Of a stretch of 64,000 bases of DNA, positions 37,927-40,433 are shown one piece after another. Below the pieces are notes generated by a model. The model was not told the DNA's origin. It worked only from the letters and a program-made list of their open reading frames with translations, and did not search any database. This stretch comes from Microbacterium oleivorans NBRC 103075 (GTDB lineage: Bacteria > Actinomycetota > Actinomycetes > Actinomycetales > Microbacteriaceae): assembly GCF_001552475.1 (NCBI RefSeq), contig NZ_BCRG01000014.1, forward strand, positions 1 to 64,000. The letters run 5' to 3'. The translations under genes and the position numbers were made by a program. Numbering within the stretch: position 1 is the stretch's first letter; each line of letters starts with the position of its first letter.

Positions 37927-38823
37927 GTGAGTGCCGAAAATCCCTACGCCGCGCGGCTCGCCGCGATCCCTGCCGAGCGGCACGAGGTGGTCGTCGCGGG
38001 TGTGCGGACCGCCTATTGGGTCTACGGCCCCGCGGAGGCGGCGATGACGATCCTCGCGGTGCACGGATTCCGCGGAGATCATCACGGGCTGGAGCCCGTC
38101 GTGGCGTTCCTCGACGGTGTGCGCGTCGTCTCGCCCGACCTCCCCGGCTTCGGCGATACGGCTCCCCTGCCAAGAAAGCACGACCTCGACGGCTACGCGA
38201 CCTGGCTCACCGCATTCGCGACCGAGGTCGCACCCGGAGCCGTCGTCCTCGGGCATTCCTTCGGCTCGATCGTCTCGTCCGCTGCCGTCGCGCGCGGCCT
38301 CGCAACGCCGCGACTGATCCTGGTGAACCCGATCGGTGCGCCGGCACTGGAGGGTCCGCGCGGCATCCTCACCCGGCTCGCGATCTTCTACTACTGGGCG
38401 GGCGCACGGTTGCCGAAGCGGCTCGGTGATGCGCTCCTGCGGAACGGCCTCATCGTCCGCGTGACGAGTATCGCGATGGCCAAGACGAAGGATCGAGGCC
38501 TCCGCTCCTTCATCCACGACCAGCACGACACCTACTTCTCGCGCTTCGCCGACCGTGACACGCTGCACGAGGCGTTCGTGACCTCGGTTTCTCACGATGT
38601 CCGGGCCGCGGCCGCCGACATCGTGGTGCCGACCCTGCTGATCGCGGCCGAGAACGACGACATCACCCCGCTCTCCGCTCAGCACGAGCTGCAGCGGATG
38701 TTCCGTGACGCAGACCTCGTCGTCATCCCGAAGGTGGGACATCTGATCCACTACGAGACGCCGCGGGCAGCGGCGATCGCGATCACGCGCTTTCTTCAGC
38801 CTTCCGACGGCGATACGCCATGA
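37927..38823 (+). CDS. Alpha/beta hydrolase
   Basis: A 298-residue hydrolase with VHGFRGDHHGLEPV as the oxyanion region, nucleophile elbow LGHSFGS (Ser111), acid residue in AENDDITPL and catalytic His in KVGHLIHYE. The mid-region LPKRLGDALLRNGL is a lid. The substrate is unknown; the lipase/haloperoxidase-like class fits. GTG at 37927 is the predicted transcript start. Its 3' end overlaps the convergent CGNR gene by 41 bases. Confidence 0.87.
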   Translation: MSAENPYAARLAAIPAERHEVVVAGVRTAYWVYGPAEAAMTILAVHGFRGDHHGLEPVVAFLDGVRVVSPDLPGFGDTAPLPRKHDLDGYATWLTAFATEVAPGAVVLGHSFGSIVSSAAVARGLATPRLILVNPIGAPALEGPRGILTRLAIFYYWAGARLPKRLGDALLRNGLIVRVTSIAMAKTKDRGLRSFIHDQHDTYFSRFADRDTLHEAFVTSVSHDVRAAAADIVVPTLLIAAENDDITPLSAQHELQRMFRDADLVVIPKVGHLIHYETPRAAAIAITRFLQPSDGDTP

Positions 38824-39340
38824 CGTTCATGCGGTTGCCGCAGTTGCCGGTGTCGCAGTAACGCTTCGACCCGTTCTTCGAGTAGTCGATGTAGACGGCT
38901 TGGCAGTCGTCGGCCGAGCACACGCGCACGCGGTCGAACTCGTCCGAGCGGATGACGTCGACGAACGCCATGGCGACCTCCACGGTGATCCGCGTCGCGA
39001 GGGGTGCCGCATCGTCGGTGGCGTGGATGTGCCAGTCGTACCCGTCGTGGATCACCAGCTGGGGGAGCGCCTGACCCTCGCGGAGCATGGCGTTGACGAT
39101 CGGCACCGCAGCGACGCGGTCGCCGGTCCACAACTGGCGCAGCTGAGACCGCGCGGAGCGGAGTTCGGAGAGCTCGACATCGTCCCGGCGGATCGTTCCC
39201 GAGTAGGGATACTCCTGCAGGAACGTGCTCAGGTCCTCGAGGGTCGCCAGGCGATCGATCCCTTCGCCGTCGATCTCGGGAAGGGAGTTCACGAGCGCCG
39301 TCGCCGCGCGCAGTGCGCTTTCGGTGTCATGAATGAACAT
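38783..39340 (-). CDS. CGNR zinc-finger transcription regulator (ABATE domain)
   Basis: A 185-residue protein. The N-terminal part is the ABATE domain. The C-terminal zinc finger has CSADDCQAVYIDYSKNGSKR, then CDTGNCGNRMNVMAYRRRK with the name-giving CGNR. These proteins are predicted DNA-binding regulators. ATG at 39340 has AGGAG. It diverges from an EamA exporter across a promoter region with two copies of an operator-like repeat, making the exporter its likely target. Its last 41 bases overlap the convergent hydrolase. Confidence 0.9.
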   Translation of the reverse strand: MFIHDTESALRAATALVNSLPEIDGEGIDRLATLEDLSTFLQEYPYSGTIRRDDVELSELRSARSQLRQLWTGDRVAAVPIVNAMLREGQALPQLVIHDGYDWHIHATDDAAPLATRITVEVAMAFVDVIRSDEFDRVRVCSADDCQAVYIDYSKNGSKRYCDTGNCGNRMNVMAYRRRKAEESA

Positions 39341-39344
39341 GGTG

Positions 39345-39398
39345 TTGACTCCTGACGCTTTCGGTCGCTACTGTCACCAGTGTAATGACGCTTAGGTC
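39345..39398. promoter_or_regulatory. Divergent CGNR/EamA promoter with two operator-like repeats
   Basis: Plus-strand -35 TTGACT (39345-39350) and -10 TACTGT (39369-39374) are 18 bases apart. TGACGCTTTCGGTC (39353-39366) lies between them and TGACGCTTAGGTC (39386-39398) lies just after the predicted start. The second copy is part of the inverted repeat ATGACGCTTAGGTCAT. TACACT on the minus strand (39384-39379) may be the CGNR -10. Confidence 0.6.
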
Positions 39399-39431
39399 AT
39401 GACGAATCGATCTCGCCCTCGAGGACCGCTG

Positions 39432-40433
39432 ATGACTTCTACGATGTCCGTCCAGCTTCCCGCACGTCCCACGCGCGGTGCTGTCCCGCCGAGCGGGTTG
39501 GTCCTTGCGGTCGCGAGCGCCCTGACGTTCTCGGTCAGTGGCCCCATCGCCAAGCCGCTGCTCGAAGGGGGTTGGTCTCTCGCGGCCGTTCTCGCGATCC
39601 GGATGGGGGTCGCCGGCCTCGTGCTCTCGCCGGCGCTCGTGCGCACCCTCATTCGACGCCCCGACTTCCTCCGCGCCCATGGGGTCTCGCTTCTCGCGTT
39701 CGGGCTCATCCCCGTGGTCGGATGCCAGGTGTTCTACTTCTCTGCGCTGCAGCGGATGCCGGTGGGCATCGCCCTCCTGATTCAATACCTCGCGCCGGTC
39801 ATGCTCGTCCTCTTCGTCTGGGCGAGGACCCGCCGTGCTCCGTCCCGCGTCGTGCTCATCGGATCCGTCGTCGCGATGGTCGGCCTCGTCCTGGTGGTGG
39901 ACGTCGCCGGCGCGCGGTTCGATCTGCTGGGAACTGCGTTCGCCCTCCTCGCTGCGGTGTGTGCGTGCGTGTACTTCGTGATGAGCGAGCGGACCGGCGA
40001 TGATCTGCCGCCGCTGTCGCTCGCGGCGGGCGGTCTGCTCATCGGGACGGTGACGATCCTGTTGCTGGCCGCCGGGGGCATCCTGCCCCTGTCGGTCTCC
40101 GACGCGCCCGTGGAACTGTTGGGGATGACCGTTTCGCCGCTCGTCCCGCTGGTGCTGGTGGGGCTCTGCACGGCGACGGGCTACGCGCTCGGGATCGTGG
40201 CCGTTCCCCGGATCGGTTCGCGCCTCGCGTCGTTCGTCGGACTCTCCGAGGTGCTGTTCGCGCTGAGTTTCGCGTGGCTCCTGCTGGGGGAGGCGCCCGC
40301 GGTCGTGCAGTTCGTGGGCGGTGCACTCATCCTGGCGGGCGTCGTCCTCGTGCGCGCCGAGGAGCGGGCGCCCGTGGATGTCAGTTCCCCCGCCGAGCCG
40401 CTGCCAGGAGAGGTCGCACCCGGTACCCGATGA
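39432..40433 (+). CDS. EamA/DMT-family transporter (RhtA-like exporter)
   Basis: A 333-residue membrane protein with about ten helices in two EamA repeats, for example LVLAVASALTFSVSGPIAK and FVGLSEVLFALSFAWLLLGE. This family exports amino acids or other small metabolites. ATG at 39432 has GAGG seven bases upstream; the frame also has an ATG at 39399 inside the operator-like region. The divergent CGNR gene is a likely regulator. Its 3' end overlaps the convergent AsnC-type gene by 53 bases. Confidence 0.88.
   Translation: MTSTMSVQLPARPTRGAVPPSGLVLAVASALTFSVSGPIAKPLLEGGWSLAAVLAIRMGVAGLVLSPALVRTLIRRPDFLRAHGVSLLAFGLIPVVGCQVFYFSALQRMPVGIALLIQYLAPVMLVLFVWARTRRAPSRVVLIGSVVAMVGLVLVVDVAGARFDLLGTAFALLAAVCACVYFVMSERTGDDLPPLSLAAGGLLIGTVTILLLAAGGILPLSVSDAPVELLGMTVSPLVPLVLVGLCTATGYALGIVAVPRIGSRLASFVGLSEVLFALSFAWLLLGEAPAVVQFVGGALILAGVVLVRAEERAPVDVSSPAEPLPGEVAPGTR

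Follow-up and report, generated by a model that had tools for sequence, protein, structure and literature searches.

The 91-base spacer between cgnR and eamA, two divergent genes in the 64,000-nucleotide stretch of Microbacterium oleivorans DNA analyzed here (the window), carries an asymmetric box, TnAC-N3-T(G/T)AC, that recurs in up to three places, in the order + − +, in spacers of the genus and of the class. Judging from sequence comparisons, we consider it probable that the spacer is a shared operator-promoter at which the CGNR protein would bind the boxes and repress both its own gene and the divergent EamA exporter gene until a ligand of its ABATE domain releases it. What was found is a conserved divergent CGNR/EamA pair with repeated boxes over both promoters, and from this we infer the operator. 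The idea of an operator with a nearby target gene had been put forward in a first-pass annotation of the region; a repeated conserved motif tied to the CGNR gene, with eamA as the sole evident target, upholds that idea, but the units that it named, their spacing and its palindrome did not survive.

The two flanking genes had been taken to encode a CGNR regulator and an EamA exporter, and Pfam scores identify them as genes for a CGNR/ABATE zinc-finger protein and an EamA transporter. The product of cgnR (38783–39340, − strand; 185 aa), the proposed box-binding protein, scored 62.6 bits with zf-CGNR (cut-off 24) and 56.7 bits with ABATE (cut-off 24.4; PF07336 and PF11706 for ABATE/CGNR), and carries the four zinc-ligand cysteines together with the CGNR motif (CSADDC ... 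CDTGNCGNR). It matched the solved structure 3h0n with an E value of 4.7e-13; this was the sole solved relative found, and the entry is titled as an uncharacterized protein. The product of eamA (39432–40433, + strand), the proposed target, scored 113.8 bits with EamA (PF00892; cut-off 28.2) in two matched stretches that correspond to the two EamA repeats, and it fell under the curated cut-offs of all four NCBIfam models that it matched. With GAGGA at 39421–39425, the ATG at 39432 appears to be a likelier eamA start than the ATG at 39399. A gene for an Lrp/AsnC regulator lies at 40384, adjacent to eamA.

The CGNR protein of the window was matched in 268 of 295 genus genomes and in 165 of 246 class genomes (E 0.001 or better). 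We read 30 loci from the genus and 30 from the class (L008 belonging to both), three from a family sample and 24 from a species collection that covered Microbacterium, Herbiconiux, Agromyces, Arthrobacter and others, and an additional 40 stretches were picked from the class match list. Removal of duplicates of the first 100 bases, with L107 and L108 set aside by hand, left 94 non-redundant CGNR/EamA spacers; EamA matches below 33% identity (L118, L124 and L127) were excluded from the pair counts. Wherever the EamA of the window was matched, in two sets of fetched loci, it was divergent to the CGNR gene, and TTGA(C/A) was present near the cgnR start in all 94 pairs. The box-bearing CGNR/EamA pairs come from many genera of the class. 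One contig labelled Stenotrophomonas maltophilia (L045) holds a Microbacterium-like CGNR/EamA locus whose identities (CGNR 71.351%, EamA 64.458%) are the same as those of L017, and it is probably a case of contamination or mislabelling.

In the window, box 1 (TGACTCCTGACG, 39346–39357, + strand) shares bases with the eamA −35 and with the Shine-Dalgarno region of cgnR and has a position weight matrix (PWM) score of 18.4, the central box (ACACTGGTGACA on the − strand, 39372–39383) lies over both −10 elements and scores 8.4, and box 2 (TAGGTCATGACG, 39393–39404, + strand) overlaps the likely cgnR −35 and scores 7.3. An overlapping + strand site at 39365 equals the central box in score (8.4), and box 2 of the window is degenerate, its first half being lost and its second half (TGAC) alone intact. 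Column statistics were taken from 23 deduplicated genus spacers (47-base frame) and from 26 spacers of other genera, likewise deduplicated. Among the genus spacers, 12 of 12 columns were invariant at 39345–39356 (TTGACTCCTGAC; mean 1.91 bits), and the means per column were 1.71 bits at 39369–39384 and 1.42 bits at 39393–39404; outside the boxes they were 0.51 bits at 39357–39366 and 0.50 bits at 39386–39392. The other genera gave 1.40, 0.92 and 1.07 bits for the same three conserved segments and 0.21 and 0.14 bits for the two segments outside. Box 1 was complete in 81 of the 94 spacers. Box 2, which was located by a fixed-offset parse, was complete in 52 of the 94 and represented by its second half alone in 35, the window included, with neither form at 45–47 bases in seven. 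The distance from box 1 to box 2 was 47 bases in 64 of the 94 spacers, 46 in 23 and 45 in two. The two boxes were identical over 11 bases in two of the 94, and at least nine genomes carry TTGACTCCTGAC at both box places, with a distance of 47 bases in eight of them and of 46 in one.

Box 1 and box 2 appear to be copies of a single element. When each spacer was scored with a box 1 matrix from which that spacer had been left out, 36 of 56 spacers had box 2 as the top site over all positions and both strands, and 35 of 56 had the central box (− strand, to within one base) as the next once box 2 was masked; the 56 share descent, so that there are fewer independent cases than these counts suggest. 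The set was obtained by omitting the five of the 94 spacers without box 2 at 45–47 bases and thinning the remaining 89 at 80% identity. None of 200 column-permuted matrices reached 36 or 35, the best values being 15 and 23. With other genera alone, the box 1 matrix placed box 2 first in 24 of 41 spacers and the central box next in 24 of 41, and a matrix pooled from box 1 and box 2 returned the central box as the third site in 51 of 56. Three loci (L074, L072 and L076) have insertions that separate the eamA −10 from the central box and shift the latter together with box 2, which suggests that these two form one unit.

The promoter hexamers reported for the exporter gene, TTGACT (39345–39350) and TACTGT (39369–39374), are present on the + strand as described. 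The −35 is invariant in the 23 genus spacers, and the −10, which has the TAnnnT form and an 18-base spacer, is also conserved. On the − strand, TACACT (39379–39384), all six columns of which are invariant in the 23 genus spacers, is the likely cgnR −10; TCGTCA (39400–39405; nTGTCA in many relatives), separated from it by 15 to 16 bases, is tentatively assigned as the cgnR −35 from the spacers of relatives; and AGGAG (39349–39353), within box 1 and 8 bases before the ATG, is the putative cgnR Shine-Dalgarno sequence. A strict sigma-70 scan, which demands TATAAT-like −10s, gave nothing here, the eamA −10 included. In TTAC-type pairs (L083, L095, L103 and others), the eamA alignment starts just past an ATG within the central region, and box 2 of these pairs probably falls inside the eamA coding sequence, the transcript probably being leaderless.

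In the mechanism that we propose, the CGNR zinc finger would bind the three boxes. By position, the eamA −35 is the first half of box 1 itself, the central box overlies the eamA −10 (TACTGT) in part and the likely cgnR −10 (TACACT) for the most part, and the likely cgnR −35 coincides with the − strand reading of the second half of box 2. Because the boxes cover the eamA −35, both −10s and the probable cgnR −35, binding is proposed to silence both genes. The CGNR protein would be freed by a ligand of its ABATE domain, which is probably the exported compound or a precursor of it, and the exporter would then be made; the exporter substrate likely is, or resembles, that ligand. Repression of the exporter gene and of cgnR itself is the most likely mode of action, the case for repression over activation being argued from the position of the boxes alone. 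With more reserve, one could envisage that TnAC-N3-TGAC, in three boxes oriented + − + on a 46- to 47-base frame, is what a CGNR subfamily recognizes across the Actinomycetes, in which a treble-clef zinc-finger regulator reads asymmetric boxes and shuts two overlapping promoters and each exporter pair has a dedicated operator.

The boxes go with CGNR/DMT pairs. The pattern TTGACTCCTGACN{9,14}TANNGTCANNAG, which runs from box 1 to the central region, occurred in 135 of the 295 genus genomes, once per genome, and 132 of the 135 sites lay 4 (116 sites) or 7 (16 sites) bases from the beginning of a CGNR match among the matches listed; the remaining three belong to genomes that do have a CGNR match, at a place outside the matches listed. 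A stricter form of the pattern was present in three of 199 family-sample genomes, and each of the three sites adjoins a divergent CGNR/EamA pair. Of the genus genomes, 27 had no CGNR match, and none of these contained the long pattern. These 27 had no EamA above 46% identity, compared with at least 57% in the Microbacterium pairs of the species collection; the EamA proteins of two paralogous pairs (L103 and L113) are 41–43% identical. One of the CGNR-less genomes has the bare 12-mer TTGACTCCTGAC. The four nearest EamA genes of the CGNR-less genomes (40–46% identity) had no CGNR match in the stretch examined and no upstream box (p 0.28, 0.455, 0.575 and 0.46).

Distant CGNR genes (35–39% identical) that lie beside a different DMT transporter had a box in five of five cases (p 0.005–0.085 against 200 shuffles), while 15 of 16 distant CGNR genes near which neither DMT query matched well showed no box (p 0.065–0.94). 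The set beside the different transporter (L118, L123, L124, L127 and L128) is divergent from it, a member of another DMT subfamily, and its sites are box-like. The one exception among the 16, a distant CGNR gene with no DMT match (L126), starts about five bases from a good box (p 0.005). Two CGNR/EamA pairs of a single genome (L107 and L108; 38–41% identical) had no clear boxes (p 0.45 and, with the cgnR start extrapolated from residue 31, 0.135 for L108), and they may use another operator. The genus paralogues L103 and L113 belong to another CGNR clade and carry, by their own EamA genes, the box 1 form of that clade, TTGACATCTTAC or TTGACAGCTTAC, with TTAC. The box type at these two loci thus goes by CGNR clade rather than by species, a pattern that inheritance with the locus would also give. 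When box 1 types were compared with the zinc fingers, one supported independent pair emerged, five in all, which is too few changes to show covariation.

In the genome of the window, the exact 12-mer occurs in this spacer alone, with four other places at one mismatch; when up to two mismatches are allowed the count is 84, compared with 52 for the reversed control. In the genus as a whole, the 12-mer occupies at least eight places away from a listed CGNR match or in a CGNR-less genome and at least three further places in genomes whose CGNR gene falls outside the matches listed, the control giving at least four places. A wider regulon was considered and rejected, in that no second target stands out among the 12-mer places.

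What tells against the operator reading is that promoter and ribosome-site constraints (TTGACT, TAnnnT and AGGAG) overlap the boxes. Two overlapping face-to-face promoters and the cgnR Shine-Dalgarno sequence could shape the spacer with no operator at all, and these elements, together with the − strand TACACT, do coincide with conserved columns; however, promoter elements need no single matrix common to box 1, the central box and box 2, nor the same 12-mer twice, 46–47 bases apart, in at least nine genomes, and we regard this explanation as unlikely. Promoter and ribosome-site duties leave part of the conservation unexplained: a TTAC-type box 1 such as TTGACATATTAC lacks AGGAG but has its T-AC halves preserved at the same spacing, and for eamA no duty of this kind falls to box 2. 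Another protein might instead read the boxes, either the product of the Lrp/AsnC gene at 40384 or a wider regulator, a suggestion that we find quite improbable. An Lrp gene was found in 20 of the 24 loci L038–L061, those being of the Microbacterium type, but none was found in four other-genus loci that have boxes (L057, L058, L059 and L061, the L057 contig stopping about 460 bases past eamA), and Lrp was thought unlikely as the box reader for this reason. Also counted against another reader are the single exact 12-mer in the genome of the window and the genus places of the 12-mer given above.

The first-pass annotation had envisaged an operator made of two repeat copies, TGACGCTTTCGGTC (39353–39366) and TGACGCTTAGGTC (39386–39398), 33 bases apart and both on the + strand, or of a palindrome, ATGACGCTTAGGTCAT (39385–39400; arms ATGAC/GTCAT with 6 bases between). 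The letters, coordinates and separation of the copies are correct, and the pair is the top self-alignment within the 91-base spacer (score 9); 12.7% of 300 dinucleotide shuffles, however, reach a score of 9 or above, so that the repeat cannot be taken as more than chance. Only the TGAC part of copy 1 lies within a conserved box (PWM score −7.4 at 39353), and copy 2 enters box 2 but is no conserved unit itself (−12.9 at 39386). Conservation in orthologous spacers, the check that the annotation itself had proposed, refuted the repeats, because among the 94 both copies were kept in the window alone. With 12 or more of 14 letters required, copy 1 was kept in one of the 94, which is the window; the closest relatives do keep copy 2 (11 or more of 13 letters), in six of the 94, namely the window and five relatives whose CGNR proteins are at least 90% identical, and the palindrome in five, the window counted. 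As for the palindrome, an inverted repeat with 5-base arms and a loop of 0–10 bases appeared in 284 of 500 shuffled spacers. The argument that 33 bases, or about three helical turns, would suit cooperative binding falls as well, given that the conserved boxes are offset from these units and are usually 46 or 47 bases (about 4.5 helical turns) apart. The repeats look like a chance resemblance that is not common to relatives. As operators, they were ruled out by the chance level, their variable columns and the single spacer that keeps copy 1, and the palindrome by the shuffles and its poor conservation; this arrangement is very improbable as the basis of control. The sequence TGACGCTTNGGTC has one exact place in the whole genome and six with one mismatch, a total of 7 compared with 6 for the reversed control pattern. 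An exact 10-base repeat, CGCTTTCGGT, at 39316–39325 and 39356–39365 (40 bases apart), exceeds the exact match of the reported pair, and its second copy sits in variable columns. We give just as little credence to an RNA-level control element of eamA in the conserved stretch past the start site. Box 2 does lie within the probable 5′ leader, and there is one Rfam match, to the fluoride riboswitch (14.3 bits, 39386–39448), but this is far below the cut-off of 34 (E 0.52), and a riboswitch was ruled out on that single sub-threshold match; moreover, box 2 is a further copy of the DNA motif seen in box 1, itself upstream of transcription, and by eye the leader past box 2 is freely variable.

The shared operator-promoter remains the reading that we prefer, and it bears on a family of which a little is known from structure. 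The accessible text of the report on Jann_2411 (3h0n) proposes that its CGNR treble-clef finger binds DNA and that its N-terminal domain is a ligand binder, describes 3h0n as a dimer, and proposes from the structure that the ABATE/CGNR family functions in DNA binding and transcriptional regulation (PMC2954205). How a box of direct half-sites would suit a two-fold symmetric dimer is not obvious, a symmetric site being more natural for the 3h0n dimer. In the literature searched, to which subscription journals mostly did not belong and which included the accessible portions of PMC3485107, PMC9976334 and PMC4260502, we found no operator for a CGNR protein. The Bordetella CGNR gene bp3097 is listed, near modA and modB, with the genes that are raised under putative cysteine starvation (PMC9976334), a possible expression clue for the CGNR family. 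CGNR/ABATE proteins are widespread and little studied, and the class-wide footprint supplies exact letters and a target gene; the natural box variants (TGAC and TTAC types, and insertions) allow specificity to be read.

Jann_2411 and the protein of the window have the same two domains, ABATE and CGNR. For Jann_2411, the accessible text gives co-occurring genes only, with no operator, target or ligand (PMC2954205), whereas a conserved operator and a target are proposed here. The eamA product has the EamA fold in common with RhtA, YddG and other EamA/DMT amino acid exporters. Its scores with the curated NCBIfam models, 44.6 bits for RhtA (cut-off 354) and 40.5 bits for YddG (cut-off 300), are far under the cut-offs, and therefore no substrate can be assigned to it. 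Systems of the TetR/TetA type consist of a regulator and an exporter encoded back to back, with a shared operator over both promoters and a repressor that is released by its ligand. The cgnR/eamA locus is like these in its back-to-back genes, its proposed shared operator over both promoters and the derepression by substrate that would be expected of it; unlike them, it combines a different DNA-binding fold with asymmetric boxes in the order + − + rather than palindromes.
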